In this document: positions 1 to 31,727 of the stretch, piece after piece | How the letters are laid out: each line of letters opens with the position of its first letter | Numbering within the stretch: position 1 is the stretch's first letter | IMG/VR virus record: IMGVR_UViG_3300032267_000413 | Coordinates: 1 to 31,727 of that record | Source of the DNA: a virus | Direction: 5' to 3' (one strand) | Length of the DNA: 31,727 nucleotides | Notes under the pieces: model-generated | Database searches by the model: none | What the model was told of the DNA's origin: nothing | Seen by the model: the letters and a program-made list of their open reading frames with translations, nothing else | Translations under genes and position numbers: made by a program

Positions 1-53
1 CAGCCGATAGCGATGCAGGCAAGACCGACGAGCAAGAGCGAACGCTTTGACAT
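1..53 (-). CDS. partial ORF starting with a signal-peptide-like N-terminus, cut by the window edge
   Basis: The ATG lies 8 bases after the stop of the papain-like gene. Seventeen residues are visible (MSKRSLLLVGLACIAIG): a short basic start followed by a hydrophobic stretch, as in a signal peptide or membrane anchor. There is no strong ribosome binding site. The frame runs off the left edge. If the window is a closed circle, it continues in frame through the join into the small terminase ORF at the right end, so it could be an upstream extension of that ORF rather than a separate exported protein. Function unknown. Confidence 0.35.
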   Translation of the reverse strand, partial: MSKRSLLLVGLACIAIG

Positions 54-61
54 GGCACGAC

Positions 62-1210
62 TCACAGGGCAATGGCATGGGTGATGGATGGCACGCGAGA
101 CACGGATGCTGGCGGTGCGGGCTGGAGCCACTTGGCGTGGTTCAAGTCTCTGTACTTGAAGCCGTCCACGCTCCCGATGACGAAGGAATCGCCTTGAGCA
201 AGGATGGCTTCGGCATCCTGGCGGGTAATCCAGAACGAGCCATCAGGCTGGTCCGATGGGTGCTTGCCGCCTGCCAGAAACGAGCCCCAAGAGTTCATGA
301 CAAGCACGCCGTCGCGCGGGTTCTTCATTGGCGTGGCCGAGCCCGGCCCGTTGTTCTTTGCGTACTTCACGGCGATGATCACCATGCAGTGATTCCACGT
401 CGAAGCCCTGCGGCAAAATCCATCAGCGTCACGGTCGCCCGACGCGAAGCCGACGTTCGAGCAAATGGGCACGCACATGCCTGACTCGAGGGCTGCCGTT
501 AGCGAGGCCCAGTCCTCGCATAACGCCACGGCCTTGGCCGGGTGCTTGTTAGCCTCGCGGGCCAGAGCGTTTGGCACGCCATACGCACCCCACTGCTGCG
601 AACGCTGGATTGAATACTGGCTCAGGTCCACGTCGCCGTACTTGGTGCGGTACAGGATGCCGCCGACGTTGGGGTCTTTGCACCGTCCAGAGACCCAGCG
701 TGCCGCTGCACCGCCGTAGGAGCCATCAGAGAAGCCCGCGTTGCTCACGGGTGGCATTCTGCCTGCGGTGCGTGAGCCGCCGTATACCGGCTCTGTAGCG
801 ACCTCTAGCGGGCATTCGGCAAGCCCACCCGATACGTGGTCAACGCACTGGCCGACATAGGAGCCCATGGCCCAGCCGAACGAGACGCACGAACCGTGAG
901 CCCCTTGGTTCCACGGGCCGAACGGCTTGCCGTACTTCTGCCGGTGGCAACGATCAGCGAAGCGATACAGGTACGTGTCGCTGCCCTTGGCCCCCGCGAT
1001 CACCTCGGCTCCAGCCTGCCGGAACATCGGCTGATCGAGTTCACGCAAGAACTCTTTGACGCCGTCGGGGTTCGGGAGGTAGCCAAAGTTATCCTCGACC
1101 TTGTCCGCGAGCCGAGCGACGTAGCGACTCACCACCGTGCCTAAGACGGCCGCAAATATCACGAACGTGATCGCGGACCAGTTCCAGTTGCTTTCACTTT
1201 GCTGCGTCAC
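62..1210 (-). CDS. membrane-anchored papain-like (C1A-type) cysteine peptidase, candidate lysis protein
   Basis: This 382-residue protein has one hydrophobic segment at about residues 11-29, followed by arginines, consistent with a signal anchor and an exported catalytic domain. The C1A catalytic set is present: Q102 and C108 in NQGAHGSC (the same six-residue spacing as papain Q19/C25), H274 in WNHCMVI and N306 in NSWGSF. The His-Asn spacing is longer than in papain because of an insert. Nine further cysteines suggest disulfides and an extracytoplasmic location. The start is GTG, preceded by GGGAGG at a good distance, and it overlaps the two-membrane-segment gene by 17 bases. The family hydrolyses peptide bonds. 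Its position after a holin-like gene, and the lack of any peptidoglycan hydrolase in the window, suggest an envelope-degrading lysin, but this is inference. A maturation or host-takeover protease is the alternative. Confidence 0.8.
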   Translation of the reverse strand: MTQQSESNWNWSAITFVIFAAVLGTVVSRYVARLADKVEDNFGYLPNPDGVKEFLRELDQPMFRQAGAEVIAGAKGSDTYLYRFADRCHRQKYGKPFGPWNQGAHGSCVSFGWAMGSYVGQCVDHVSGGLAECPLEVATEPVYGGSRTAGRMPPVSNAGFSDGSYGGAAARWVSGRCKDPNVGGILYRTKYGDVDLSQYSIQRSQQWGAYGVPNALAREANKHPAKAVALCEDWASLTAALESGMCVPICSNVGFASGDRDADGFCRRASTWNHCMVIIAVKYAKNNGPGSATPMKNPRDGVLVMNSWGSFLAGGKHPSDQPDGSFWITRQDAEAILAQGDSFVIGSVDGFKYRDLNHAKWLQPAPPASVSRVPSITHAIAL

Positions 1211-1745
1211 TGGCGGCCCTCCCGATGTCGCGGTACGCCGTGACCCACGCCGCCCGTGTCTCAGCCGTCAGCGGCCCGCCATCGGTGCCGACGTTCTTGT
1301 CGAGGTAGGTGGCGATGATGTCGCGGGCTTGCGGCTGGCGGTCGCCGATTGAGATCCCACGGCAGCGAAGAATCCGAGACGCCTTCCGAAGTTCGTCAAC
1401 AGCCACGCCACTCTTGAGATACCGCTCGGCCTCGGGCTGGGTGCCGTCGTACTCAATCTCGTCTGCGAGCTCATTGCACAACGCTCCCACGAGGCTGGCG
1501 TCGTCTGACGCCGATGGGCCGAGGAACGTGCCGCGAAGAACCAGCGGGCCGGTATCAGGAGCCGGGGTCGGCTCGTCGGACTGCTGGCCGCGTGGCATGA
1601 GCAGCACGGCAGCGAGCACCAGGCCAATGGCGATGAGTTTCTTGGGGTCGAGTTTCTTCACCCACTCGACGGCGGGCTCAAACTTGGAGAGGTCGCCGCC
1701 GTAGAACAGGGCGACGGCAGCAGCGACAAGCAGAATCGAGAGCAT
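1194..1745 (-). CDS. protein with two N-terminal membrane segments, holin- or spanin-like candidate
   Basis: This 183-residue protein has hydrophobic segments at about residues 2-14 and 37-50, separated by a charged stretch (KFEPAVEWVKKLDPKK). A Pro-rich linker and a soluble C-terminal domain of about 115 residues follow. The start is well supported by AGGAGG six bases before the ATG. Its stop lies inside the start of the papain-like peptidase gene, so the two are probably translated together. The topology and the pairing with a secreted peptidase resemble a holin/lysin cassette, but the large soluble domain is unusual for a holin and I recognise no family. A membrane partner or chaperone of the peptidase is equally possible. 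Confidence 0.7.
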   Translation of the reverse strand: MLSILLVAAAVALFYGGDLSKFEPAVEWVKKLDPKKLIAIGLVLAAVLLMPRGQQSDEPTPAPDTGPLVLRGTFLGPSASDDASLVGALCNELADEIEYDGTQPEAERYLKSGVAVDELRKASRILRCRGISIGDRQPQARDIIATYLDKNVGTDGGPLTAETRAAWVTAYRDIGRAASDAAK

Positions 1746-1805: not shown

Positions 1806-2186
1806 CTACGGATCGCCGCAGTTGTCCAGCAGCTCCTCCAGCGGGTCATTTCGCAGGTCGTGCGAACGCTCAACCCGGAACATCACCGTCTCTGTCACGG
1901 TGCGGTACGTCCTAGGCGGCTCTGCCATACGGGTGGCCATGTGCTTGGCTCGCATCTCGGCAGCCCCGGCGGAAATCTCCTGCGGCGTTGGGTCAGCGTG
2001 CCGCTTGCCCTTCTTGCGTTGGCTACGGTCGTGACGCACAGGCAGCCCGAGGCGATCACGCAGCCGCGTAATCTGGTCTCTGCTCACGCCCAGAAACATC
2101 GTCATCTCGGCGTAGGTAGAGCCCGTGGCCCAGATCTGCCTAAGCGTCGCCTGAAGCGTCTGGCACGCCGTCGATACAGTGCCCAT
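1806..2186 (-). CDS. GcrA-like helix-turn-helix regulator
   Basis: This 126-residue protein has a helix-turn-helix near residues 14-50 (IWATG, TYAEMTMFLGVSRDQI, RLRDRLGLPVR). The pattern resembles the DNA-binding part of GcrA-type cell-cycle regulators. A basic linker (QRKKGKRH) leads to the motif DPTPQEI and an unassigned tail. The same W-x-T-x2-T-x-AE helix and DPTPQ-I element occur in the regulator at 5428-5868, so the two are probably paralogues. GGAGG lies six bases before the ATG, which supports this start even though it overlaps the preceding glycosyltransferase gene by 47 bases. A role in late gene control next to the lysis genes is inferred from position only. Confidence 0.65.
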   Translation of the reverse strand: MGTVSTACQTLQATLRQIWATGSTYAEMTMFLGVSRDQITRLRDRLGLPVRHDRSQRKKGKRHADPTPQEISAGAAEMRAKHMATRMAEPPRTYRTVTETVMFRVERSHDLRNDPLEELLDNCGDP

Positions 2187-3054
2187 CGCTCGCCTCCATC
2201 CAGTGCATGACGCACCGCTGAGAGGGATTCAAGAACAGGTGCTGGCCCGTGGCCTTAGCGATGGACTCATGGAACGGCACGTGCTCACAATCGGCAGTGC
2301 CGTCGTATGTGCCACGCAGGTACGCATCGGCACGGTAAATCGTCATGCCGCCGAAAGCAGACGAGACCAGCACGGGCGGCGAGCCAACAGGCGGAAGCCA
2401 CGTATAGCCAAATCCGCCGTACCCATTTTGGTACGTGTCGAAATAGCAGTCGGCCTGGCCGACACCACGCAAGGCCCACAGGTCGTAGTGATACCAGTCG
2501 ATGCCGTTGCCAAAGTTGTGTTGGAAGAGACTGACGCTTGCCATGCCGTACGCACCCGGCAACTCGACTAGCCAGCCGATGCCGTTGACCAGGCCGTGTA
2601 GTGAGAAGCCGCCCCAAGAGTCAAAGTCCATGATCACGACATAGTCGGCATCGGCAGCACAAGCCCGCGCCCACCGCTGGCAGGCAGCACGATACTCAGC
2701 CAGGGCAATCGTGCGGCGGCCTCCAAACTCTCCAGGGTGATGGCCACGCCCTAGCATCTGGTAGTGGAACGTCGCCTGCCGGTGCTCCCGCGAGAACTTC
2801 GCCAGCACGTCCAGCGTGTCATCGTCGCAGTCGTTGCTCTCGATGTGCAGCTGCCACGACTTGCACATGCTGGCGAGCCCGTGAACTCTCTGCAGGTTGT
2901 CGGCAAGTTGTGACCCGCAGTTTCGGGCGAGCCCAACAACAGCGATGGACGAATGCCGCAGCCGCTTGAGGCCCTCGGCGTGCCGCTCATCAAACGCCTC
3001 GCCAAAGGCATGGTGCGGATACCACAGGTTGGCAGGCAGTCCGACGCTAGGCAT
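2140..3054 (-). CDS. CAP59/GT69-like glycosyltransferase
   Basis: This protein of about 304 residues has a GT-A-type pattern. An N-terminal strand (IAVVGLARNCG) is followed by ESNDCDDDT, comparable to the 'E-N-x-S-x-D-x-T' element of CAP59-like mannosyltransferases, then a conserved RT-x-A-x-YRxxC helix, and IMDFD at about residues 141-145 as the metal/nucleotide-sugar-binding DxD motif. The ATG at 3054 is preferred over the upstream GTG at 3066 because GGAG lies six bases before it and it leaves only an 8-base overlap with the GT2 gene. It probably transfers a sugar in the cytoplasm to virion protein, DNA or host glycan. The acceptor cannot be told. It ends a methyltransferase-GT2-GT set. 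Confidence 0.72.
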   Translation of the reverse strand: MPSVGLPANLWYPHHAFGEAFDERHAEGLKRLRHSSIAVVGLARNCGSQLADNLQRVHGLASMCKSWQLHIESNDCDDDTLDVLAKFSREHRQATFHYQMLGRGHHPGEFGGRRTIALAEYRAACQRWARACAADADYVVIMDFDSWGGFSLHGLVNGIGWLVELPGAYGMASVSLFQHNFGNGIDWYHYDLWALRGVGQADCYFDTYQNGYGGFGYTWLPPVGSPPVLVSSAFGGMTIYRADAYLRGTYDGTADCEHVPFHESIAKATGQHLFLNPSQRCVMHWMEASDGHCIDGVPDASGDA

Positions 3055-3820
3055 ATGGAACTCCACGCTTGGTGCAGATCGCAGCGGCGACGCTGAACGG
3101 GATCCCGGCCTTGCCTAAAAACTCCCAGATGGCAACGTGGTACTCGGCGGCACGAGGCCCGGTGCGGTGCTGATGCCCGTACCCGCCATTGTCAACGGTG
3201 AACGTGGCCCCGGAGCCAGCGACGTATGCGGCACCATGCCGTACGCCAACGGCGGCATAGCCAATGGCGTCGCTCCACGGCCCCATACGCCACCACTGCA
3301 GGCTGTTCAGCCACAGCAAGCAATCGCGGCGGATGCCCGAGCCGATGCCTGTCTCCGTTGCATGGGGACGCTCTCGCAGCCGGTGACGCATTTGCTCAGG
3401 CGTGAGCCTGGTTCCCGCAGCAGAGTCGTAGCCCTGCCTGACTGAGCCCGTCAGCGTTCCGCTGGCGTCAGCGACGTTGTAGTCGTGAAACACCACGGCG
3501 GCATCTTCGTGACGGCCGACGCTGTCCACGACGCCAACAGCCAACGTGTCGTCGGCCCCCATCATGATGACGTGGTTGCCGACGAGGCTTGGGTAAAGAG
3601 CCGAGGCTGCCTGCTGCCAATCGTCGGCCTTTGCTTCGTGACGGTGCAGGCGGACGCACGGGTACACGCCACGCAGCTGCTCGACAATGCCAGGCGTGTC
3701 ATCGGTGCTGGCGTCGTCAATGACGAGCACCTCCACCGGATTCTGCATGGCCGCCGAAACAATGGCACGGCTGAGCGTGGCCGCCCTGTTGTGCGTCGGG
3801 ATCACGACCGACACGCTCAC
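3047..3820 (-). CDS. family 2 glycosyltransferase
   Basis: This protein of about 257 residues begins with the classic GT2 strand VSVVIPTHNRAATL. It continues with VLVIDDASTDDT (the DDAS nucleotide-binding element near residue 35) and MMGADD (the DxD-type metal site near residue 90). The start is taken as GTG at 3820 because this places the GT2 strand at the N-terminus and gives a GTGA overlap with the methyltransferase stop. A longer reading to 3925 would overlap that gene by more than 100 bases. The enzyme would use a nucleotide sugar. It sits between a SAM methyltransferase and a CAP59-like transferase, so the three may build or cap one glycan. The substrate is unknown. Confidence 0.82.
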   Translation of the reverse strand: MSVSVVIPTHNRAATLSRAIVSAAMQNPVEVLVIDDASTDDTPGIVEQLRGVYPCVRLHRHEAKADDWQQAASALYPSLVGNHVIMMGADDTLAVGVVDSVGRHEDAAVVFHDYNVADASGTLTGSVRQGYDSAAGTRLTPEQMRHRLRERPHATETGIGSGIRRDCLLWLNSLQWWRMGPWSDAIGYAAVGVRHGAAYVAGSGATFTVDNGGYGHQHRTGPRAAEYHVAIWEFLGKAGIPFSVAAAICTKRGVPYA

Positions 3821-4485
3821 AGCTTGGCCCCCGTGCAAACTGCCAGCCGGTAGTGGCACATCGGGCCATAGCCGGTGTGTAGCGTCTCGTCGTTCATGCC
3901 AAACACGAAGACGTTGCGCCAGCACCGCTTGAGCGTTGCCCGCAGATCGTCCTCGGTCTTGCAGTTCACATGCCCGGCCCGGCTCAACTCTGACGCATGG
4001 GGCTGAGACTCAAGGGACGGCATGCCACACACAAACGTGCCGTGCTCGCCAATGCTCATGGCGACGTTGCCAAGAAACGCACCCTCATGCTCTGGGCGGA
4101 TGTGCTCAAGCACGTCAAGTGCATAGGCGGCGTTAAACGTCTTGGGCAGGCGATCAGGCACGTAGCGTGGCCCGGCCACTATGTCATGCTGCATGAACAA
4201 GACGTTGGATGGCTGCTGTCGGCTGCGGGCTTCGTCAATAAACGCAACGTCAAAGTCAGTCGCCATTACGTGCTCGACGGCCTGGGCAACGACACGGGTT
4301 GCGAACGCATCGCCGCAGCCCACCTCGAGCACCCAATCGCAGCCGGTGAGAACACGGGCAACGAACTTGTAGCGGGCCAGCGTGAACCCCAGCCGTTTGG
4401 CGTCCACCTCGTAGGTGTGCGAACTCATCAGCCCCAGGCTGTGCCGCTCGTAATCCGCAAACACGTCGTACTGCGTTTCGTTCAT
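3817..4485 (-). CDS. class I SAM-dependent methyltransferase
   Basis: This protein of about 222 residues carries the class I methyltransferase motif I VLEVGCGDAFATR (about residues 52-64), motif II VMATDFD (about 73-79) and a motif IV-like region ALDVLEHIRP (about 122-131). This is the Methyltransf_11/23 type, seen mostly in enzymes acting on small molecules or sugars rather than on DNA bases. There is no DPPY or PC motif of DNA methyltransferases. The start is the ATG at 4485, which overlaps the rusA stop as ATGA. Being followed immediately by two glycosyltransferases suggests methylation of a sugar or glycan. This is an inference from the operon. Confidence 0.82.
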   Translation of the reverse strand: MNETQYDVFADYERHSLGLMSSHTYEVDAKRLGFTLARYKFVARVLTGCDWVLEVGCGDAFATRVVAQAVEHVMATDFDVAFIDEARSRQQPSNVLFMQHDIVAGPRYVPDRLPKTFNAAYALDVLEHIRPEHEGAFLGNVAMSIGEHGTFVCGMPSLESQPHASELSRAGHVNCKTEDDLRATLKRCWRNVFVFGMNDETLHTGYGPMCHYRLAVCTGAKL

Positions 4486-4880
4486 GTGATTCGCACGGTC
4501 GTGCGTGCCTCCTGCCCCCATGACTTTTCCACAACAAGGCGGGCCACAAGCGAGTCGTCGCCCATCACATCCTGTAGCGAATCGAGCACGGCCTTGGCGA
4601 CGTTGTCCACGTCGGGCCTGGGCAACTTAGGTGCGGTCGCCTTCACGCCACTCTTGAGCATGTGCGACTTGGGACGCTGAAAGACTGCGTCGATCACGAC
4701 ATCTAGTGGCTCGCCTGTTGCGGTGAGCCCAGCAACACGGGCAGCAACTGCCAGCCGGGTGCGGTATTCATGCACCGGGTGGCTGCCCGGCACGTACGCA
4801 CGAGCGAATCCGCCACGGGTAGATACTCGTGCCCGAGGCTGCGGCACAGGGTTGCCGGTGACGGTGAACGTGATCGCCAT
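4482..4880 (-). CDS. rusA: RusA-family Holliday junction resolvase
   Basis: This 132-residue protein is of typical RusA length. An N-terminal strand (ITFTVTGNPVPQPRARV) leads to the catalytic region PRPDVDN with D90 and D92, K96, and the later acidic pair D108/D109 in GDDSLV, followed by a conserved lysine (K119). RusA dimers cleave four-way junctions symmetrically in the cytoplasm and resolve recombination or replication intermediates. This fits with the RecT annealase and sliding clamp upstream. The start has no Shine-Dalgarno sequence; it is preceded by a 25-base element shared with the zincin gene at 16234. It is followed by the methyltransferase through an ATGA overlap. Confidence 0.88.
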   Translation of the reverse strand: MAITFTVTGNPVPQPRARVSTRGGFARAYVPGSHPVHEYRTRLAVAARVAGLTATGEPLDVVIDAVFQRPKSHMLKSGVKATAPKLPRPDVDNVAKAVLDSLQDVMGDDSLVARLVVEKSWGQEARTTVRIT

Positions 4881-5431: not shown

Positions 5432-5868
5432 GCCACGTCTCCTCGCCATAGCCGGCCCTTGGTAGCCGAGTCACTTTCGCCACGCATCTTGGCTTCGCGC
5501 ATCTCTCTACACTCCATTGCACGTTCTTCAATCTGCTGCGGCGTCGGATCGCTGATACTCGACCCGTCTGGCCGCCGCTTAGGTGGCAACTTGTGCCGCC
5601 GCTTCAGCGTCCAGAGCGTCGTGACTTTGCACCCCAGCTGCTCGGCAATCTCTGCCAGCGTCGCTTGGGTGTGCCAGAGGAGAAACAGCTTCGGCACGTC
5701 CACCTCCACCCGCTGGCCTGTCGTCTTTCGTGGCCACCCGAACCGACGCGCCGCATCAGTCACCGCTGTCTCGCCGCAGCCTAGCCGCTTGGCGATCTCG
5801 CCGTTGGTTACGCCGATGTCCCGCAGCCTCTTGACTTCATCGAAGTCCACAATCTTCCGCTTCGCCAT
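5428..5868 (-). CDS. double helix-turn-helix regulator with DPTPQ-I motif
   Basis: This 146-residue protein has two likely helix-turn-helix units: GVTNGEIAKRLGCGETAVTD (about residues 19-38) and ATLAEIAEQLGCKVTTLWTL (about 69-88). A basic linker (KRRHKLPPKRRP) and DPTPQQIEERAMECREMREA follow. The second unit and the DPTPQ-I motif match the regulator at 1806-2186. The start ATG shares one base with the sliding-clamp stop (TGATG), so translation is coupled to the clamp gene. It is probably a DNA-binding control protein. It could also be an adaptor with no operator of its own. The target is unknown. Confidence 0.72.
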   Translation of the reverse strand: MAKRKIVDFDEVKRLRDIGVTNGEIAKRLGCGETAVTDAARRFGWPRKTTGQRVEVDVPKLFLLWHTQATLAEIAEQLGCKVTTLWTLKRRHKLPPKRRPDGSSISDPTPQQIEERAMECREMREAKMRGESDSATKGRLWRGDVA

Positions 5869-6992
5869 CAGCCGGCCTCCGCTGCGAGTGGCATGATGAC
5901 GCCCGTGCAGTCGCCAGAGCGGAGCACCACAGCGGACTGAGCGTTGACGGCTTCGATCTGCACCGGCTCGCCTTCGTCCACGTGTCGCAGGAAGTCGGCC
6001 ACGTAGTGCGGGTCAAGCTTCACGCTGGCCGGCTGGCCCGGCTCCAGCACGGCACACGTCACGCTTGACTCGCCGGCCTCACTGCTCCTGGCCGTCAGGT
6101 GGATGCCCTCAGACGTGAAGACAAACTGCACGCCCTTGGACTGCTCACTGGTGACGATGGCCGCCTGGCGTACGGCAGAGAGCATCTCGCGGGCGTTGAC
6201 GCTGGTGGCCTTTGCCTCACGCTCGGGGATCACGTCCTGCCACTTTGGATAGCGTCCCTCAATGGTTCGAGAAACCACCACGGCGGTGTCGATGGTCGCC
6301 ACGAGTTCATTGCCGGCGAACTCCAGCTGCACCGCACACTCGCTATGGCTGGCCAGTGACGCAAGCACACCGATGGCCCGCGAAGGCCAGAGCGTGGTTG
6401 AGTCATCCACCGCCTGGTCGATCTCCACGCCGTAGCGGCTGAGCCTTCGCCCGTCAGTCGCCACAAAGGTGGCCTTGCCGTCCTTAACTTCGACGAGCAC
6501 CGCACCCAGGGCGTAGCGGCTGCTGTCGTTGTCCACGGCGTACGTCACGGCACGAACCGCACGGCAGAACTGGTCGGCCGGGATGCGACAGATTGGCTTC
6601 CTCTCCATCTCGGACGGCGTCCACGCAGGAAACTCAGCCACAGCCTCGGTGGGCAGCGTCCATGAACCACGGCCCAGCCGGATCTCGCACGTCGTGCCGG
6701 CAGGCGACAGCGTCACCTGCGCGTCGCGCCCACTAGCCAGGATGGCCGACAGCCTCTGGTACGGCAGCAAGATGGGATCGCCCGTGTATTCAATCTCGCA
6801 CGAGATCCGCAGCTCGAGGTCGGTCGCTTCGGCTACGCCGTTCCCAATCCGAACGTTTGCCAGAGTCGGGCGATTACCGCTTCCGACTGCCGCCTTTACC
6901 GTCGCCATTGCACGACGAAGGGCTTCCGTCGCCAGCGTGATACCAGACGCTGTCTTTGTTCGCTTGGGCTTTTCGAGTGTCGTAGTCGTCAT
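5868..6992 (-). CDS. dnaN: DNA polymerase III beta subunit (sliding clamp)
   Basis: This 374-residue protein is close to the usual length of about 366. Clamp signatures run in order: ATDLELRI (about 56-63), EFPAW (120-124), SRYALGAVLVEV (158-169), ATDGRRLS (178-185), SRTIEGRYPKWQDVIP (241-256) and a C-terminal GVIMPL. All three clamp domains are therefore present. It has a 16-residue N-terminal extension relative to typical DnaN. The family forms a ring dimer on DNA that tethers the replicative polymerase and repair enzymes. The ATG has AAAGGA seven bases upstream and lies 119 bases inside the end of the small membrane-protein gene. No phage polymerase, helicase or clamp loader is visible, so it must work with host proteins or replace the host clamp on phage DNA. 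Confidence 0.93.
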   Translation of the reverse strand: MTTTTLEKPKRTKTASGITLATEALRRAMATVKAAVGSGNRPTLANVRIGNGVAEATDLELRISCEIEYTGDPILLPYQRLSAILASGRDAQVTLSPAGTTCEIRLGRGSWTLPTEAVAEFPAWTPSEMERKPICRIPADQFCRAVRAVTYAVDNDSSRYALGAVLVEVKDGKATFVATDGRRLSRYGVEIDQAVDDSTTLWPSRAIGVLASLASHSECAVQLEFAGNELVATIDTAVVVSRTIEGRYPKWQDVIPEREAKATSVNAREMLSAVRQAAIVTSEQSKGVQFVFTSEGIHLTARSSEAGESSVTCAVLEPGQPASVKLDPHYVADFLRHVDEGEPVQIEAVNAQSAVVLRSGDCTGVIMPLAAEAG

Positions 6993-8461: not shown

Positions 8462-9109
8462 TCAGTAAACTCTGTATTCAACTTCAATCGGATCGGCATC
8501 GAATTTGCATTCTTCTGCAGCCTCAAGCAAAACCTGCCACGCCGAATCGTCTGACATCGCAAACCATTCGCCGCACCTGCGATCGAGGTCAGCTGTGGCG
8601 TGTGCCGTAGCCTCAAGCCGGTCTGCGTCGTACCTGCAGGTCAGTGGCACGTAAGCAATCAGATAAAGGCGACTCGCGTTGCCTGTCTGAAGCGTTCTCA
8701 TCCGATGCTTGATGTCGTTGGCAGCGCCTATCTTGACGTTCCCATGTCCGTCTCCGATTGCGTAAACAAAACTCCTGCCGCCTGACTTGTCGGGCAAGTT
8801 TGCCGGAGGCGAAAGCGTTGCTTCTTCGTATGAACGACGGTGCTGGCACTTTGGCGGATACTCAGTCTTGCACGCTTTTGCCTCACATCCGCGATGCGTC
8901 CACTCCTTAAGTTCACGAAAAAGCCAAAGCCTCACGTCGTGCTGCGTTGCTCCCATGATGATCTCGTTGCACGCAGCAAGAACTCCGTCCCAATAGCCTC
9001 TGCGGTAGTTGCTCTCCGAGGCTTCAATCACCTCCTGGGATTCCCTTGAAATTTCGGAGAACTTCCGCAGCACGAGCGTTCCATCGCCACCACCTAAATC
9101 ACCGGCCAT
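8462..9109 (-). CDS. GIY-YIG superfamily protein (T5orf172/MUG113-like domain)
   Basis: About 215 residues. The C-terminal part (about 113-200) resembles T5orf172/MUG113-type GIY-YIG domains: FVYAIGDGHGNVKIG, then RMRTLQTGN, a conserved E166 in LEATAHA, and GEWF near 180-183. The N-terminal half is a helix-rich unknown region with a Cys/His cluster (RGCEAKACKTEYPPKCQHRR) that might bind metal. AAGGAGG six bases before the ATG at 9109 fixes the start. The gene is more A/T rich than its neighbours, as is the HNH gene just upstream, which suggests joint acquisition. It could be a homing-type or modification-directed nuclease. Family assignment is good; activity is not shown. Confidence 0.75.
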   Translation of the reverse strand: MAGDLGGGDGTLVLRKFSEISRESQEVIEASESNYRRGYWDGVLAACNEIIMGATQHDVRLWLFRELKEWTHRGCEAKACKTEYPPKCQHRRSYEEATLSPPANLPDKSGGRSFVYAIGDGHGNVKIGAANDIKHRMRTLQTGNASRLYLIAYVPLTCRYDADRLEATAHATADLDRRCGEWFAMSDDSAWQVLLEAAEECKFDADPIEVEYRVY

Positions 9110-9184
9110 ACTTGCCTCCTTTCTATTCCGCCCGGCCGCATCAATTCCTGGCTGCATTTCGCTTAGTCACGAACCGCTCGTCCT

Positions 9185-10513
9185 TCAGGGTGTCTCCTCC
9201 TGAGTCGCCGCAAGGTCGCTGTCGCTCTTGCCGGTATTGCACGGCTGGCAAAGCGTCCACAGGTTTTCAATAGTTGTCGGCCCTCCCTTTGAAACAGGAA
9301 CCTTGTGGTCTAGGTGCAAAACAATTCCGTCTTTCTGCTGCAAGCCACAGAGTTGGCACCTGTAGCCATCCCTGCGAAGAACTTCAAAACGCAATCGCTT
9401 TGGGATCGTGATGCGAGCCAATGTCGAGATGCCACTTCCATCGCGTTCACTCTCTGATTCCGGCCCTAAATACCCAGTCGGTATTTCGGACATATTTCGG
9501 GGCATGACGACGCACCCGGCCCGTAGTTGGAGTCTTGGAACCTGGCGATTTGCACCTGTCCAAAACAAGGCAAGGTGCGGGTTTCTCCAATGCGGAGACT
9601 GCTCGCTCAGGCTCTGCAGGGTGCGCCCAAAATCAAAGCCACGGCCAGCAACCCGCGCTGCTCTTTCTTCAAGCCATTTTCGCTCTGGCTCTTCCGCCGT
9701 CGCATGTCTTGCCCTGTCGCGCTCAAGAACGATCGGAGTGATTAAATCAGATCCAGACGCAAGCTGAGCCGCTATAACAGCCAGCCTGTATATGAATGAC
9801 ATCTCATCGCCGACGCGTCGGTAGGACTCGGCCGTTGAAAAGGAGCGAATTGATTCCGGCAGCCCAGCAAAGTTTGCTTGCTGGGATTCCAAAGCTTCGT
9901 CTACGGTCTGATCCGTGTCTCCGCAGCACGAGACGTGCGAAATTTGGATCTTTGATTCGCCACTTGGCAGTCTCTTTTGTGCGACAACAAGCAAGCAGTT
10001 TTGTTCTTTTGGCGCAGTAACCAGCGCGGATTCGTAGCCGCCCGGAACCTGTGATGCGGCAAAGCGAAAGCAAATGGTTTGATTCGGAAACTGCACAAGC
10101 CTTATCGGGAAATCTAGTTTTGTTTTGTTTGCCAACGACACAACAATAGGAAACACGTTGTAGAAAGGCCGATTCTCCTCAAACCACGTGACCTCCGAAC
10201 CAAATCGCATCAAGGCCTGCACCGCTGCAACCTTTAATGCGATTTCATCAGGCAGTGAAAAGACGCACCTATTCACAAAATCAACCGCAGACCCATCGCC
10301 GCGACTTAAAGCAACTAGCCTGCTGAAAACCTGGCTCTGCATTTCCTCTGGAACCCCGCGGCGCAAGAGAGAAATCTCCTGTGAGATGCACTCTCGCAAA
10401 AACTCCGCCGGGTCTGTTGATCGCAGTTTTTGCACCAGCAAAGCCGGTGCTCCTTGTTCCGTGAGTAAAGAAAGAACCGTCTGTTTCGCTGTATGCCAGT
10501 CGCAAAACTTCAT
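9185..10513 (-). CDS. HNH endonuclease with a large unrecognised N-terminal domain
   Basis: About 442 residues. The last 70 or so form an HNH nuclease: RFEVLRRDGYRCQLCGLQQ (C386, C389), LHLDHKVPVSKGG (catalytic D402/H403), IENLWTLCQPCNTGKSD (N417, C422, C425). The preceding 360 or so residues match no family I know; notable stretches are PHWRNPHLALFWTG and EIPTGYLGPE. The ATG at 10513 overlaps the previous stop as TGATG. Base use is visibly more A/T rich than in flanking genes. It may be a selfish nuclease, an anti-host or anti-phage effector whose N-terminal part is a sensor, or a late packaging nuclease. HNH next to terminase is the usual packaging context, and this gene is far from terL. 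Confidence 0.8.
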   Translation of the reverse strand: MKFCDWHTAKQTVLSLLTEQGAPALLVQKLRSTDPAEFLRECISQEISLLRRGVPEEMQSQVFSRLVALSRGDGSAVDFVNRCVFSLPDEIALKVAAVQALMRFGSEVTWFEENRPFYNVFPIVVSLANKTKLDFPIRLVQFPNQTICFRFAASQVPGGYESALVTAPKEQNCLLVVAQKRLPSGESKIQISHVSCCGDTDQTVDEALESQQANFAGLPESIRSFSTAESYRRVGDEMSFIYRLAVIAAQLASGSDLITPIVLERDRARHATAEEPERKWLEERAARVAGRGFDFGRTLQSLSEQSPHWRNPHLALFWTGANRQVPRLQLRAGCVVMPRNMSEIPTGYLGPESESERDGSGISTLARITIPKRLRFEVLRRDGYRCQLCGLQQKDGIVLHLDHKVPVSKGGPTTIENLWTLCQPCNTGKSDSDLAATQEETP

Positions 10514-10836
10514 CACGCCAACCTCCACGCCGTCGCGTACCGGCCACTCATCGCCTTGCGTGTCCCGGCCTCGACCACCAGGCCGCGCCTGACGAGTTCG
10601 ATCCGCCGTGGCCGTGCCGTACTGGGGTTCATCTGCAGCCCCGTGGCAATCTCCTCGTCTGTGGCACCGTGGTCACCGCGAGCCCGCAGGAAGGCGACCA
10701 CCGAACGCTGCAGGGTGTTAAGCCGTGAGCCCATAGCGTCGGCCGCAGCCACGCTCGTCACGCTCGACTGCACCGCCGGTGCTCGAGCAGGTGCCGCGAA
10801 CAGGGGGCCGGCGGATTCGATGCCGTAGTGGTTCAT
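10513..10836 (-). CDS. winged-helix DNA-binding protein
   Basis: This protein of about 107 residues has a disordered Ala/Ser-rich N-terminal third. A winged-helix follows from about residue 35: LNTLQRSVVAFLRARGDHGA, TDEEIATGLQMNPSTARPRR (recognition helix), IELVRRGLVVEAGTRKAMSG. The pattern is close to the phage helix-turn-helix proteins that precede replication genes. The ATG at 10836 is supported by GAGGTGG upstream and overlaps the stop of the 45-residue HTH gene as ATGA. A longer reading from a GTG at 11052 would cover that small gene and is rejected. Likely regulatory or replication-related. Confidence 0.72.
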   Translation of the reverse strand: MNHYGIESAGPLFAAPARAPAVQSSVTSVAAADAMGSRLNTLQRSVVAFLRARGDHGATDEEIATGLQMNPSTARPRRIELVRRGLVVEAGTRKAMSGRYATAWRLA

Positions 10837-15242: not shown

Positions 15243-16244
15243 TCAAGCCGAGCGAACCGTACCGTCACCCATCACGCGGTAGTTGTGAACGTCAAACGCT
15301 CCACGCTCGTGGACGGTGGCCACGGCAAATCCCCAGTTCCACCTGTTGATCTTGGCGTACTCAGGCCGCAGGTCGCACAGGCAGCCGGTGCTCCAGCACC
15401 CGGTCTCGCGGTGCCACATGTCGGATTCAGCGTGATTGCTGGTGCGGTGGGAATGTCCCACTAGGCACGTTGAGAGCGTGCGGAGAAACGCACCGCGAGC
15501 CACGTTCACCGGCGCGGCCATACCCTTGGGTAGCTCATGGCCATGCAGCACAGGCAGCTTCCCCAGCATCACGGGCCGCTGGTCTTCGACTAGTGTGATG
15601 CCGTGCTTGTCTAGGTCGAGCCACGCCCCCAGGCTCATGCGAGGATCATCAGAGATCTCGGCGGCGTGCTGCCAAAGCCAGTGCGTCCACCGCTCCTCAT
15701 GGTTGCCGAGCTTGTAGACGATTGGGATGTCGGGAAACTCTTGCCGCACGTAGGCAAGGAACTCACGCACCGCCTCGAGCTCGCCTTTGAAGTCCCGCTG
15801 CGTCGGGTCTTTGTTGTATCGACTGATGGCGTAGAAGTCTGCGATGTCGCCATTCAATAGCAGGCCCGCCAGCCCCTGCGACTTTAGGCATGTGATTGCC
15901 GACGCAACGGCAATCTCGGAGTGATAGGGCACGTGTACGTCGGACATGATGCCGACGTGGCCGAGCACCTTCATGACGTGCGGGGTCCACGTGTCGGCGA
16001 TCGACTTCGGCATCTCAAGTACTTGGCCGGCGTTTCGCGGGGCGCGAGGAGCGGCAGGCTTGCTCTCTTTTTTGTGCTTGGCTCCCTGGACGCCAAACTG
16101 CCTGCCAATCCTTTTGCGAGCCTGCTCAAGCGTGATGGCCCCCTTGGTCTCTCTCACCAGGCGACGTGCCAGCGTTCGTGACGCTACCTCGGGGTGCTTG
16201 CGGCAGAGCCGTTTCGCCATCTCAGTGATTACGTCACCCGCCAT
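15243..16244 (-). CDS. calcineurin-like metallophosphoesterase
   Basis: 333 residues. The five metal-site blocks are present in order: SDVHVPYH (D102, H104), LNGDIADF (D133), KLGNHEERW (N181, H182), LHGHE (H234, H236) and VGHSHRT (H264, H266). Such enzymes use two metal ions to cleave phosphate esters in nucleotides, nucleic acids or phosphoproteins. The first 60 or so residues are a basic helical extension that might bind DNA. GGAGG lies six bases before the ATG, which overlaps the zincin gene by 11 bases. Phage relatives occur beside replication or structural genes; the substrate cannot be read here. Neighbouring zincin and DUF6378 genes give no clear pathway. Confidence 0.88.
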   Translation of the reverse strand: MAGDVITEMAKRLCRKHPEVASRTLARRLVRETKGAITLEQARKRIGRQFGVQGAKHKKESKPAAPRAPRNAGQVLEMPKSIADTWTPHVMKVLGHVGIMSDVHVPYHSEIAVASAITCLKSQGLAGLLLNGDIADFYAISRYNKDPTQRDFKGELEAVREFLAYVRQEFPDIPIVYKLGNHEERWTHWLWQHAAEISDDPRMSLGAWLDLDKHGITLVEDQRPVMLGKLPVLHGHELPKGMAAPVNVARGAFLRTLSTCLVGHSHRTSNHAESDMWHRETGCWSTGCLCDLRPEYAKINRWNWGFAVATVHERGAFDVHNYRVMGDGTVRSA

Positions 16245-16521
16245 TCGGCACCTCCCTGTAGCCCAGCATGGTCAAAACACGACGCTGAACCTTGGCCGCC
16301 TCGGTAACGGCTTCCTCGCTGATGCTCGGGCCGAGAGCCGCATGAAGTATCTCGTGCAGGATTGTCTCAAGCCTCTCGCCGCCCTTTAGTGTCTCGTCAA
16401 TCAAAATCCTGGGCCGCTTGGCAGTGTCAAAGAACGTCCAGCCGGCGGCCCTGCCCTTCAGCCGCGTGAATCGCAGCAGCCACCGCTTGCCGTCAATCGT
16501 GACGTTGTGATCCTCGGCCAT
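16234..16521 (-). CDS. minimal zincin-like metalloprotease (HEILH)
   Basis: 95 residues. A short beta-rich N-terminal part (WLLRFTRLKGRAAGWTFFDT, PRILIDETLKG) precedes the zinc motif LETILHEILHAAL with H56, E57 and H60, and an acidic follow-on (SISEEAVTEA) that could supply the third ligand. It is half the size of SprT- or ImmA-type peptidases but follows the same layout. It probably cleaves protein, for example a repressor or virion precursor, or is a degenerate metal-binding protein. No Shine-Dalgarno sequence precedes the ATG; instead the 25-base element shared with rusA is found. Confidence 0.75.
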   Translation of the reverse strand: MAEDHNVTIDGKRWLLRFTRLKGRAAGWTFFDTAKRPRILIDETLKGGERLETILHEILHAALGPSISEEAVTEAAKVQRRVLTMLGYREVPNGG

Positions 16522-24557: not shown

Positions 24558-24775
24558 TTGGACTTCCTCCCTCTGCGACGTGGTGCGTCGGCCGTCTCAA
24601 CGTCTCGGCGTTCGACCATGGCCACCTCGAGCAGCTGCCGCTCTTCGGGCATGATCTCGCAGACGCCAGCAAACAGCAAAGACTTGGCCGGGCCACGCGG
24701 GTACGTGATGGTGTCGCCTTTGCGGTACACGCCGTGCGGACGAAGGAATCGCAAAGTCACTTGATCGTCAGGCAT
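24554..24775 (-). CDS. small basic head-module protein
   Basis: About 73 residues: VTLRFLRPHGVYRKGDTITY, PRGPAKSLLFAGVCEIMPEE, then a charged C-terminal tail (ADAPRRRGRKSK). The 'G-x-Y-x-KGD' turn resembles small beta-barrels found before connector genes. The ATG at 24775 is chosen because GGGGAGG lies about six bases upstream; the earlier ATG at 24790 has none. Probable minor head protein; no named family. Confidence 0.62.
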   Translation of the reverse strand: MPDDQVTLRFLRPHGVYRKGDTITYPRGPAKSLLFAGVCEIMPEERQLLEVAMVERRDVETADAPRRRGRKSK

Positions 24776-27581: not shown

Positions 27582-27745
27582 GAGCGCCGGCGAACTTCGC
27601 ACGACTTCACGACGTGCTTGGCCGTCTTGCGGCATGACGGGCATCGCAGATAGCGAGTGCAGACGCCGCCCTTTTCAGCCGACGCATACACGCCAAGACG
27701 TGCAGATCGACAGTGGTGGCAAACGTCACCCGACTTTGTAGCCAT
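27569..27745 (-). CDS. small zinc-ribbon protein
   Basis: About 58 residues with two CxxC pairs: VCHHCRSARLGVYA and LRCPSCRKTAKHVVKSC. This is a zinc ribbon. The ATG at 27745 is the likely start because it begins just before the ribbon; a longer reading adds 14 residues of protease-gene overlap. The gene is squeezed between the prohead protease (20-base overlap) and the capsid gene. Zinc-ribbon proteins at this position are unusual; a regulator of late transcription (as in ogr/Delta proteins) or a nucleic-acid-binding assembly factor are possibilities. Confidence 0.6.
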   Translation of the reverse strand: MATKSGDVCHHCRSARLGVYASAEKGGVCTRYLRCPSCRKTAKHVVKSCEVRRRSLPN

Positions 27746-28367
27746 GCTGTCGCAGGAACCTACGGATTGCCTTTTCGCTCTTCGCATCCCGTGAGAGACC
27801 CGGCAGCGTCAGCGCCGGTCGGTGCGATTGTAGGAACCGCTCAAAACTCCTCTGAGCGATAGACACGGTGGCATCTGGGTACGCCGGGCTCAGGACTGGC
27901 GACACGTCGAAAACGCCGTCTACCTCGTGGACGTATCGCACCGCCATGCCATCATCTTCGGCCCAAGTTTCGCCAACGCCAGGCTCTTTGAGAGCGAACG
28001 CGAATGACGAGCCCCAGATGTCGCCTCGAGCGATCAGCACAGACAAATCACGGCCGAGCGAAGTGTCTGGCGTTTCGACAGCGTACGGCATCCCCTCTGA
28101 GTCAGTGGACACAGACAAGGTGCCGCTGCGGGTGCTGCCGAGAACATAGTTGCTGTCGTGATTCCACAACGCAACAACGGGATGATCCTGTTCCCGCAAA
28201 GCCCGGTCAAACGCACCGGGGCGGATCTCTTCACGAAACTGAAACCGCTCCCCAAGCACCACAGAGCGGACGCCATACTTAGCGGCGTAGCCGGTGATGT
28301 ACGTCTTGCCGTTCTCACGCTTCTCGACGTTGAGCGGCAGTTGCGAGTTGTGGCGGGAGACCTGCAT
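27726..28367 (-). CDS. HK97-type prohead protease (U35 family)
   Basis: About 213 residues. Family features are in order: TYITGYAAKYGVRSVVLGER, EEIRPGAFDRAL (about 46-57), VVALWNHDSNYVLGSTRSGT with catalytic H70, DIWGSSFAFAL with S120/S121, and GVFDVSPVLSPAYPDATVSI. The enzyme cleaves the capsid scaffold domain and itself during head maturation. GAGGA lies seven bases before the ATG at 28367; the upstream in-frame extension overlaps the portal gene and lacks family sequence. Portal, protease, capsid order is standard. Confidence 0.9.
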   Translation of the reverse strand: MQVSRHNSQLPLNVEKRENGKTYITGYAAKYGVRSVVLGERFQFREEIRPGAFDRALREQDHPVVALWNHDSNYVLGSTRSGTLSVSTDSEGMPYAVETPDTSLGRDLSVLIARGDIWGSSFAFALKEPGVGETWAEDDGMAVRYVHEVDGVFDVSPVLSPAYPDATVSIAQRSFERFLQSHRPALTLPGLSRDAKSEKAIRRFLRQHGYKVG

Positions 28368-28369
28368 GG

Positions 28370-29713
28370 TTATTTCCTCTTGCGGCGTGAGCGTGCCGGT
28401 GCTGGCTTGACGGGCGTATCGTTTGGCATGGGCGGCCCGGCCAGCAGCTGGTCGGTGTAAGACACGGGCAGGTTGTCGGCCGGGGCCGGCTCGCCAGCGT
28501 TGCCAGCAGCCGCTGACGCAATGCCCTGCATGGTGGTGAGGTTCATTTGCATGTATCGCTGGTCGCCATCCGCCCCGATGGGGTTCATGTTGAGCACTTC
28601 GCGGCACTCGTTGATTGAGTAAATGCCAGTGTTGAGCATGGTTTGCAGCCAGTTGGCCTGGGCGGCCAGGTCGCCACGCAGCAGGCCACGGGTATCAAAC
28701 TCAGCAAAGAAAACGTCATCTTTGACCACAAGGTCGCGGGTAATGGCCGACTCCCAACGTCGGAACCACGGCAAGAGCGTCTGCTGCACCAAGTCGATGG
28801 CGGCCTGCTCCTGGCTGGCGTACCCCACCTTGGTCTTGTCTTGCACGTAGCTAGGGTCAACGCGGTACGCGCGGCAGATCTCAATCACTTGGTATTGCCG
28901 AGTTTCCAGAAACTGGCTGGCCTCGTTCGTGCTTTGCACGTCCTTCCAGTGGACGCCCTGCGGCAGCACAGCCGTTCTATGACTTCGGTCGGCCCCACGG
29001 TGCATGCGTTCAAACTGCTCACGCAGCCGCTCGGCAGTCTCCACCGTGATCGGGTTGTCGGACTCCATGAGCCCTGACAGCCGGCAGGCGTTGCCGAAGT
29101 AGGCCCCGCCGTGCGTTTCCAACGCTTGAGCCAGGGCGATGGCATCACGGCTGAGCGTAATCGGCAGCATCCCCATGACGCCGTCGTTTGACAGCCAACG
29201 CAGGTGGAAAATCTGGTCTTGCCGGTAGATCGTCTCTCGCCCGTTTTGCTCTCGGTAGCAGTACCGGAGCGTCCCGTCCTCAAGCTGCTCTACCGTCATC
29301 CGGCTCGGGTGCAGCGGCCACAACTCTGACACAGCACCGGCCGAGCCGCTGCGGATCTCGGCGTAGGCATTGCCCCACAGCAGGCAGTGGGCCGTCAGCA
29401 TCTCGCGCAGTTCAAACGACGTGAGCCAGCCATTTGGCTGCTGGTTCAAAAGACGATAGAGAGGCAGATCGCGGGCACGCTCTTTGCCGCCCTCGGGCAG
29501 CCGGCGAAACACATGCAGCGGAATCGTGGCGACGTTCTCGGCAATCAATCGCACGCAGGCCAGCACCGTCGAGCACTGCATTGCCGTCTCGGGCGTAACC
29601 CTCACGCCAGCCGGACCACGGGACGGCGAATCGTTCCAGCCGTCGCCTGACGCACCACGCAGGTCGATGATGCGGTAGCTCTTGTCCTCTGTCGTCTCGG
29701 CGTTGGCGATCAT
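28370..29713 (-). CDS. HK97-type portal protein
   Basis: 447 residues. Recognisable portal elements: TVLACVRLIAENVATIPLHV (about 49-68), LYRLLNQQPNGWLTSFELRE, NAYAEIRSG, QIFHLRWLSNDGVMGMLPIT, FERMHRGADRSHRTAVLPQG, and DPSYVQDKTKVGYASQEQAA followed by TLLPWFRRWESAI. A Pro/Ala-rich, basic tail ends the protein. Twelve copies form the DNA entry ring and bind the terminase. The ATG overlaps the terL stop as ATGA. The length is standard. Confidence 0.92.
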   Translation of the reverse strand: MIANAETTEDKSYRIIDLRGASGDGWNDSPSRGPAGVRVTPETAMQCSTVLACVRLIAENVATIPLHVFRRLPEGGKERARDLPLYRLLNQQPNGWLTSFELREMLTAHCLLWGNAYAEIRSGSAGAVSELWPLHPSRMTVEQLEDGTLRYCYREQNGRETIYRQDQIFHLRWLSNDGVMGMLPITLSRDAIALAQALETHGGAYFGNACRLSGLMESDNPITVETAERLREQFERMHRGADRSHRTAVLPQGVHWKDVQSTNEASQFLETRQYQVIEICRAYRVDPSYVQDKTKVGYASQEQAAIDLVQQTLLPWFRRWESAITRDLVVKDDVFFAEFDTRGLLRGDLAAQANWLQTMLNTGIYSINECREVLNMNPIGADGDQRYMQMNLTTMQGIASAAAGNAGEPAPADNLPVSYTDQLLAGPPMPNDTPVKPAPARSRRKRK

Positions 29714-31281
29714 ATGGCGACCAAATCCCAGTTTTGCTCAGGTGGCGGTGCTGTCGATGTCTGCCAGAGGCCAATAGCCATCACCAGGCTGACGATCCCG
29801 TCGATGCGTTCGGTGCTCTTCGCCTTGCTTGGTTTAATGTTTCCGGCCGCACTGTCCTGCTGAATCGCCACGTTGCTCGCCTGCCACGCCAGCACCGGGT
29901 GCCCACCGTGCAGCAGCTTGCCCGATACGACGAAGTTCTCCAGCTGCTTTGACGGGCCTGACAAAGAGCCGTAGCCCTGCCGAAAGTCTGACATGGGAAG
30001 CCCATCTCCTTGCAGTTGCTGACCGAGGTGAGCACTACCCCAAGGGTCTAATCCGATGCCACGAATGCGGTACTTACTGGCAAGGTTGACGATGTCACGC
30101 CGCACCACCTCGAAGTCGGTGACGTTTCCATCAGTCATCGTCAGAAGGCCCTGCCGCTGCCAAGTCAGGTAAGGAACCTTATCGCGTCGCTCACGCTGAT
30201 GGGCGTTATCACTCGGTATCCAGAAATGCGGCTCCACCCAGTACGTGCCGTTGTCCAAAGGGAAGAACAGCACGAAGGCCGTGGTATCAAACGTCGTGGC
30301 TAGGTCAAGCCCGGCCCAGCACTCACGGCCGGCAAGATCCACCGGGCAGGCACCGTTGCCCTGAGCCCAGTGATCCATACGCAGCCACCTTTGATCCTGC
30401 TCCGTCCATTGGTCCAGATAGAGCTGGCGGAAAGTGTTCTCGTAGGTCGGCATCTCGATAGCCCTGGCACACTCGCTCCGCAGGAAGTCGAGCTTCACCG
30501 AAACGCCCAGGTTGGGATTGGCAGCGGCCCAAACTTTTTCGTCTTTCCAATCGGCCTCCACCGGAGCCGCAAAGATCATCGGCAGGAATGACTCGTCTTT
30601 GATGGCACCGCTGGCGACACCTTCGGCGTACTTCCAGACTTCCCAACAGACGCTCTTGCGGTCATAGCCCGCCGTGGTCAGGGCCACCGTCAGCGGGTTG
30701 CGTCGAGCACCTTGCCCCGACAGCATCACTTCCCACATCTCACGGTTGCTCACATGGAGCTCGTCAAAAACCACGGCATGGGGCGAGAGCCCGTGCTGCA
30801 ATCCGGCCTCGGCGGAAAGTGACTTGTAGGTTGAGTGCGTGGACTCGCGGACGATGGCGTTTCGGTAGACCTTCAGCAGGCTTGATAGCGTAGGCGACTG
30901 CTCCACTGCGATGCGGGCGGTATCAAATACCAAGCGTGCCTGGTCCCTCGAGGCAGCACACGAGTACACTTCGGCACCGGGCTCATCTTCGAGCAGGCAC
31001 CGCAGGGCAATGCCGGCAGCCAGCGTGCTCTTGCCATTTTTGCGAGGCACCGCCAGTAGCGACGTGCGGACTTTGCGGCGGCCGTTGATTTCAGCGAACA
31101 GCGACCGCACGTAGTCCTTCTGCCACCGCTCCAGCAGGAACGGCTTGCCGCCCAACTCGCCCTTGGCGTGCGTCAGGTGTTTCTCGAAGAACCGAACGGC
31201 TATGCACGAGGCACACTTGCCGCAGGGCTTCTTAACCGAACATGAGACGGTCTTCGTCGTCGGTGTCTTTCGTTTGCTCAA
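29710..31281 (-). CDS. terL: terminase large subunit (HK97 family)
   Basis: 523 residues. ATPase: Walker A VPRKNGKST (about 78-86) and Walker B AVVFDELH (D173, E174). Nuclease: D326 in AGLDLA, D412 in GIGLDPWG and D494 in ERIDGIVSL. It cuts and pumps DNA into the prohead. Start: an in-frame stop lies at 31314-31312 and the only nearby start is TTG at 31281, with GAGGG nine bases upstream, so I accept a TTG start and a 50-base overlap with terS. Unusual: a short Cys cluster near the N-terminus (C14, C20, C23, C26 in CSVKKPCGKCASC) that might bind zinc. Confidence 0.93.
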   Translation of the reverse strand: MSKRKTPTTKTVSCSVKKPCGKCASCIAVRFFEKHLTHAKGELGGKPFLLERWQKDYVRSLFAEINGRRKVRTSLLAVPRKNGKSTLAAGIALRCLLEDEPGAEVYSCAASRDQARLVFDTARIAVEQSPTLSSLLKVYRNAIVRESTHSTYKSLSAEAGLQHGLSPHAVVFDELHVSNREMWEVMLSGQGARRNPLTVALTTAGYDRKSVCWEVWKYAEGVASGAIKDESFLPMIFAAPVEADWKDEKVWAAANPNLGVSVKLDFLRSECARAIEMPTYENTFRQLYLDQWTEQDQRWLRMDHWAQGNGACPVDLAGRECWAGLDLATTFDTTAFVLFFPLDNGTYWVEPHFWIPSDNAHQRERRDKVPYLTWQRQGLLTMTDGNVTDFEVVRRDIVNLASKYRIRGIGLDPWGSAHLGQQLQGDGLPMSDFRQGYGSLSGPSKQLENFVVSGKLLHGGHPVLAWQASNVAIQQDSAAGNIKPSKAKSTERIDGIVSLVMAIGLWQTSTAPPPEQNWDLVAI

Positions 31282-31690
31282 CGGCCGAAACCCTCGACAT
31301 GGCTGACGCTGTCAGGCCGAACTCGGCGGCAAACTTCAGCATGGACGTGCGAGCGTCACGCTTGCGAGTCCACGCCGGATGATTACTTACCCTACCCTTG
31401 TCGTCCATGAATGTTGCGCCGTTTGCTTTCAGTTCACGGTCGGCATCGATCATGTCCGCCAGAGAATCGCAATACGCCGCGAGCGTTTGCTGATGTCGCG
31501 GGCTCATGACCTTGGACGCCTCAAGCATTGGCACGATCCTCGCCCACTCTTGGCGGGCAACTTCGCCCAGCCAATCCGGTGCCGGCGGAATCCCTGGCGG
31601 TGCGTCGATGCCGGTGACGTGCGGCCCGCGAATCCGCGAGCCCCGGATTTTCAAAATCGGTTTTGGCGTCGGCTTTCGCCCGCGTCCCAT
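31232..31690 (-). CDS. terS: terminase small subunit (P27 family)
   Basis: About 152 residues. An N-terminal basic stretch (MGRGRKPTPKPILKIRG) precedes APDWLGEVARQEWARIVPML, SPRHQQTLAAYCDSLADMID, the disordered loop GATFMDDKGRVSNHPAWTRK and the C-terminal FAAEFGLTASAMSRV, the usual P27 terminase layout. It recognises the packaging site and stimulates TerL. The ATG at 31690 is preferred; a GTG at 31714 has no ribosome binding site. The frame stays open to the right edge, and if the molecule is circular it continues to an ATG at position 53. Confidence 0.85.
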   Translation of the reverse strand: MGRGRKPTPKPILKIRGSRIRGPHVTGIDAPPGIPPAPDWLGEVARQEWARIVPMLEASKVMSPRHQQTLAAYCDSLADMIDADRELKANGATFMDDKGRVSNHPAWTRKRDARTSMLKFAAEFGLTASAMSRVSAVEQTKDTDDEDRLMFG

Positions 31691-31727
31691 TTTCAATCTC
31701 TCAATTTCGGCCACGTGTACGCATAGG

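Follow-up and report, generated by a model that had tools for sequence, protein, structure and literature searches.

How does a temperate phage leave its host cell when none of the usual wall-degrading enzymes can be found in its DNA? This question is raised by the virus record IMGVR_UViG_3300032267_000413, of which all 31,727 nucleotides were analysed (in the following, the window). Near its left end, a first-pass annotation had noticed a papain-like C1A cysteine peptidase next to a protein with two membrane segments, and had suggested that this pair may take the place of an endolysin in a phage of a planctomycete-like host.

A predicted papain-fold peptidase with an intact active site

The peptidase is encoded on the minus strand (62..1210, GTG start, 382 aa), with the catalytic domain at residues ~55-350. 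Hydropathy predicts a membrane segment at residues ~12-28 (SAITFVIFAAVLGTVVS; 1127..1177, minus strand), which lies within a helix at residues 10-38 of the AF2 model. The catalytic residues follow the order of clan CA, namely Gln, Cys, His and Asn. These are the oxyanion-hole residue Q102 (codon at 905..907), the nucleophile C108 (887..889) at the Q-x5-C spacing known from papain, H274 (389..391) and N306 within an NSWG motif (293..295), all on the minus strand. All four are invariant in an alignment of 37 sequences (A1), two Mucilaginibacter proteins being among them. In a larger set of 82 aligned relatives, Q102, C108 and H274 were kept throughout, while N306 was kept in 80/82, with gaps in the other two.

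The AF2 model obtained from 37 homologues (pLDDT 87, pTM 0.82) shows the papain fold. Xylellain from Xylella fastidiosa (PDB 3ois) was matched with a Z score of 22.3 over 242 residues (rmsd 3.0) and procathepsin B with a Z score of ~19. Both carry a pro-region at the place where the peptidase has a matching membrane-proximal N-terminal part. In contrast to these two enzymes, to which it is only ~17% identical, the peptidase has a membrane anchor, sits in a phage cassette and gives no match to Peptidase_C1 (PF00112). Such a match was found neither for the window peptidase nor for the 37 homologues, even at E 1, nor elsewhere in the record. Pfam, PHROGs, PADLOC and INPHARED leave the peptidase unrecognised; INPHARED holds zero relatives, IMG/VR 556 viral ones. 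On its modelled fold and its sequence, the protein is a member of the papain superfamily (clan CA), and proteolysis would be its activity. It defines a papain-fold family that is missed by current phage annotation libraries. The first-pass description of a papain-like C1A peptidase with an intact Q102/C108/H274/N306 set is thus confirmed by the invariance in relatives and by the modelled fold.

In the case of the membrane segment, 41% of the residues are A/G/S/T, and the net charge of the N-terminal flank is at least that of the C-terminal flank in 25/35 cases. By the charge rule the topology is ambiguous, as the window's own flanks point the opposite way, and this speaks against a role in lysis. 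In the model, the part next to the membrane aligns with zymogen pro-regions, which would allow the enzyme to stay controlled up to its release, in the way of SAR endolysins. The latter, e.g. P1 Lyz, are peptidoglycan hydrolases of known families. They resemble the peptidase in that the enzyme domain is preceded by one N-terminal membrane segment and that soluble relatives exist, and the anchored and soluble forms of the peptidase parallel the SAR and canonical endolysins; the delivery of SAR endolysins has been described (PMC6116114). A further parallel is the N5 domain of mycobacteriophage LysA, a papain-family-like cysteine peptidase domain found in endolysins and proposed to cut the wall (PMC3314691). 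Like the peptidase, N5 is a papain-superfamily peptidase of phages and a proposed lysis protein. Unlike the peptidase, which is one anchored enzyme with no other domain, N5 is soluble and forms part of a modular endolysin, where its usual companions are a wall-binding domain and either an amidase or a glycosidase. With the N5 precedent known, a stand-alone anchored papain-like enzyme in phages without another recognised lysin would be new.

A conserved cassette of small membrane proteins

The gene of the partner protein (1194..1745, minus strand) ends with an overlap of 17 bp on the start of the peptidase gene. It encodes 183 aa, comprising N-terminal hydrophobic segments, a Pro-rich linker and a helical domain. 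When the same gene pair was sought in related phages, both genes were side by side, with the partner upstream, in 80/80 viral loci kept, and their ORFs overlapped in 75/80. The earlier description of the partner as a two-membrane-segment protein applies to the window's lineage and some others, but two segments are not conserved: many homologues have one, and these single-segment partners are N-in/C-out by the charge rule (24/24). What is conserved is the helical domain behind the Pro-rich linker. Because two segments occur only in some lineages, the partner would make a poor holin, and it was rejected in this role. Neither Pfam nor PHROGs names the partner, and structure comparison detected no known fold and no family.

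On the other side of the peptidase, the start of a gene e (MSKRSLLLVGLACIAIG) appears in the ORF list at 1..53 (minus strand), where it is cut by the window end. In relatives (e.g. L001:7348-7620), gene e encodes ~90 aa with a membrane segment and a Pro-rich linker. The conserved unit runs from the partner over the peptidase and e, often followed by a three-segment YeaQ-like protein, to f, a protein with a short amphipathic W-rich N-terminus and often a Cys-rich tail. Using neighbour HMMs, e and f were found in 68/68 loci having enough downstream DNA. A 120-aa protein, LDGL, lies upstream in 61/67 loci, the six loci without it being the window's own lineage. The three-segment YeaQ/GlsB-like protein occurs near e in 43 loci, the window's nearest relatives included. 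Judged by sequence, it would be a better holin candidate than the partner; its absence from many loci speaks against lysis. Its match to Transgly_assoc (E 0.002) is below the Pfam cut-off, and this weak match is the only one that Pfam, PHROGs and PADLOC gave for the cassette proteins. Cys-rich motifs, some of them DnaJ-like, are a recurring feature of small proteins across cassette types (L156:6327-6566; tails of f, e.g. L065 after 11415).

In the window's group, the cassette precedes the terminase small subunit gene (TerS) by 2-5 kb. In another group (~10 loci), it is flanked by the prohead protease and capsid genes, and in two further genomes (G016 and G018) it comes after the tail genes. 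A position in the late region and the company of small membrane proteins are both characteristic of lysis cassettes, and both are found here; the variability of the position counts against the lysis reading.

Search for conventional wall hydrolases

The first-pass annotation took the window for a whole phage. This does not hold, as the IMG/VR record is linear, has no end repeat, and gene e runs off its edge. In two relatives with peptidases 94-95% identical to that of the window (L001 and L002), the distance from the peptidase to TerS is ~4.5 kb, and among the genes in this interval are e, f and those of the YeaQ-like protein and of a concanavalin-like protein. Given this incompleteness, nothing can be concluded from the lack of an endolysin in the window by itself, and relatives therefore had to be examined.

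At the right end of the record is TerS itself (31232..31714, minus strand; Terminase_4, E 1.5e-23). The packaging and head genes further comprise TerL_nuclease, Phage_portal, Phage_capsid and a prohead protease (27726..28607, minus strand; Peptidase_S78, Pfam E 1.2e-40). Several other genes were observed in the window. Beside the cassette, the stretch 2140-4521 holds two glycosyltransferase-like genes and a methyltransferase gene, to be seen together with 24768-25532, where another glycosyltransferase-like gene lies within the head block. A phage-encoded DNA polymerase III beta clamp (DnaN) is found at 5868-6992. T5orf172/GIY-YIG-like and HNH genes are adjacent in a stretch of lower G+C (8462-9157 and 9185-10528) and are likely homing or mobile inserts. 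Directly after the tail genes, a 95-aa HExxH protein (Peptidase_M78 / SprT-like) is encoded at 16234-16521, and several other phages with the peptidase have it too.

The window itself yielded no wall hydrolase. The claim that it has no lysozyme, amidase, transglycosylase or NlpC-type enzyme stands in this respect, for a stretch that lacks ~4.5 kb. A conventional hydrolase in the rest of the genome had been named as the finding that would overturn the proposal. This gap is covered by a near-complete close relative (G011), and together with the window's unassigned genes it gave no wall hydrolase among the best 25 of 36 Pfam families, those outside the best 25 being weak (E > 2e-4). Direct repeats of 127 bp at both ends indicate that G016 (42.7 kb) and G018 (45.4 kb) are probably complete. 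The Pfam scan of G018 showed no wall hydrolase, and neither did that of G016 among the best 25 of 38 families, with the remainder at E > 2e-4. Profiles of Phage_lysozyme, NLPC_P60, Peptidase_M15_3 and SLT had hits in 0/41 records, the bacterial controls being positive, and Amidase_2 in 0/30 records. In the case of the circular plasmid pPLIM01, described below, the full Pfam list for 39 otherwise unassigned proteins contained no wall hydrolase. Among known families, the peptidase is the only wall-degrading candidate in the complete genomes; a wall hydrolase of a family not yet known could be present.

Exchange of proteases in the cassette slot

In phages whose TerL is ~75-81% identical to that of the window, the same slot holds a soluble homologue of the peptidase together with a different membrane-anchored partner. 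This homologue has 307 aa, no membrane segment and the same active site (profile comparison, 100% probability). As the soluble homologues have no signal peptide, their site of action could be the cytoplasm, which speaks against lysis. In portal relatives, LDGL is followed in this slot by C1b, a protein of 291 aa, and by a secreted protease of the trypsin type (Trypsin_2, E 1e-21), whose near-full-length copies all have the GDSGG/S motif (59/59). This alternative cassette (L251:6618-8267; L244, L268, L276, L287-L346) was found in 71 loci, none of which has the window's type of peptidase (C1); C1 and C1b never occur in one locus. Residues Q77, C83 and H236 of C1b are invariant in 20 sequences, and our guess from these residues would be that C1b is a cysteine peptidase; its profile comparison with C1 was not significant. 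From these sequences the slot seems to change its protease type. No peptidoglycan hydrolase was seen in the cassette slot of related phages.

Some further proteases and homologues were observed. The trypsin-like protease of the alternative cassette has a DnaJ-like CxxCxGxG motif in its N-terminus. G011 has a further secreted trypsin-like protease beside RusA (L099:4540-5319). A 77 kb record (G005; L008, L338) contains both a C1 cassette and a C1b gene ~50 kb apart, and represents two prophages or a chimeric record. Soluble homologues with 33-36% identity to the peptidase are also encoded on Mucilaginibacter chromosomes (L081:9953-10915 and L082:9857-10783). These have no phage genes nearby and lie outside any prophage, a point against the lysis reading.

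A homologue on a planctomycete plasmid

Using the homologue from the complete genome G018 (L065) as query, the sole plasmid match was pPLIM01 of Planctopirus limnophila (L350, NC_014149.1). This 37-kb circular molecule, the only plasmid of the species, encodes terminase, portal, head protease, capsid, tail, integrases and ParB, and by this gene content it is a phage-plasmid. The original report of the plasmid makes no mention of phage, and a literature search found no paper on the peptidase family or on pPLIM01. The homologue is PLIM_RS21800 (WP_013112484.1; 344 aa; HMM E 1.5e-22, hhalign 98.8%); next come a small membrane protein whose tail is Pro-rich, then HNH and TerL. Like the window peptidase, the homologue is membrane-anchored, keeps the Q/C/H/N set and has a small membrane protein next to it. 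It differs in sequence (24% identity) and in its upstream neighbour, for which profile comparison gave no significant relation to the window's partner. Relatives of the pPLIM01 terminase showed no detectable C1 homologue. A 370-aa protein of pPLIM01 (21-1133) appears to combine an N-terminus of two segments, resembling a holin, with a lipobox and a Pro-rich linker behind it, and is possibly two nested genes.

Through pPLIM01 the planctomycete-like host gains support, and for the window itself such a host is still presumed; in INPHARED, the neighbours by beta clamp and by TerL come from mixed hosts. The protein-rich, peptidoglycan-free envelope that had been part of the proposal is doubtful, because P. 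limnophila possesses sacculi of peptidoglycan that are sensitive to lysozyme (PMC4432640). On the other hand, the majority of the genes for peptidoglycan synthesis in this species are reported to be dispensable (PMC10632474), and thus targeting peptidoglycan with an endolysin may not be enough.

Proposed function and alternative explanations

As to function, the balance tips slightly towards the peptidase being the catalytic centre of an envelope-opening (lysis) module in planctomycete-type phages. The partner, the peptidase, e and f would probably be made together with the late genes. The N-terminal segment would hold the partner, and probably the peptidase too, in the inner membrane, facing the periplasm. 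There, the membrane-proximal N-terminal part of the peptidase would perhaps hold the enzyme inactive, in the manner of procathepsins and xylellain, and a small multi-segment membrane protein, e.g. the YeaQ-like one, may serve as holin or trigger. The peptidase would then cut peptide bonds of the envelope, be it in envelope proteins, in peptidoglycan stem peptides, or in both. The soluble version would need a holin. We infer lysis in this way, along with the proteolysis, orientation, zymogen control and substrate that it would involve.

An unlikely explanation that nevertheless has to be taken seriously is a membrane-bound late protease with a task other than lysis: shaving of surface proteins (superinfection exclusion), envelope remodelling for non-lytic release, or degradation of host proteins. 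The module is membrane-rich and seemingly host-specific, its slot can hold a secreted trypsin-like protease, and the soluble versions without signal peptide would also be compatible with such a task. In addition, a deep-sea planctomycete phage has been reported to be released without lysis (PMC10945688); lysis genes therefore need not exist, and this keeps the non-lytic explanation alive. However, it would leave complete genomes without any identified lysis enzyme, and a multi-gene cassette in 80/80 loci is conserved above what is expected of accessory genes. No PADLOC defence model was matched.

Processing of virion proteins, in head or tail maturation or in DNA injection, is very unlikely; the first-pass annotation had named it as an outcome that would count against its proposal. 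The cassette is common to phages with unrelated packaging and head modules and is travelling independently of the virion: G016 and G018 have a GpA terminase and Phage_capsid_4, and G018 also has Phage_portal_2. As these head genes are unrelated to those of the window, the module is shared across heads, as lysis modules often are. Moreover, a membrane anchor and membrane-protein partners are ill-suited to head assembly. Virion processing would be favoured by the placement in ~10 loci, where the portal/prohead protease genes lie on one side of the cassette and the major capsid gene on the other, and by the position of the pPLIM01 homologue just before the terminase, but S78 is present in one such locus (L059) as well as in the window, and pPLIM01 has a ClpP-like head protease. 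C1 was rejected as prohead protease for this reason, since it is not the sole protease.

Little credence can likewise be given to the explanation that the peptidase is cargo from which the lysogen or the plasmid-bearing host would profit, e.g. by proteolysis of nutrients or toxins. Cargo genes are usually sporadic, whereas the cassette has a near-universal gene set with overlapping ORFs on the late-gene strand; the temperate or plasmid lifestyle (integrases, ParB) and the chromosomal homologues in Mucilaginibacter would be consistent with cargo. Finally, it is hardly credible that a divergent or missed conventional wall hydrolase lyses the host with the cassette as an accessory: the window lacks ~4.5 kb, many proteins in these genomes are without known function, and the Pfam results are the best 25 of 38 (G016) and the best 25 of 36 families (G011 set), but G011 covers the gap with none among its best 25 of 36, the profile searches were negative in 41 records with positive controls, and the complete pPLIM01 list was negative.

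Implications for phage exit from planctomycetes

Beyond the window, it is possible, though rather doubtful, that a large group of planctomycete phages does without peptidoglycan hydrolases and would open the envelope by proteolysis. Interchangeable cassettes would then carry the anchored papain-like enzyme, its soluble form, or a cysteine peptidase with a secreted trypsin-like protease. Phage exit from planctomycetes is almost unstudied. With a protease cassette in hundreds of viruses and a homologue on the phage-plasmid of a tractable planctomycete, the question of exit becomes directly testable.
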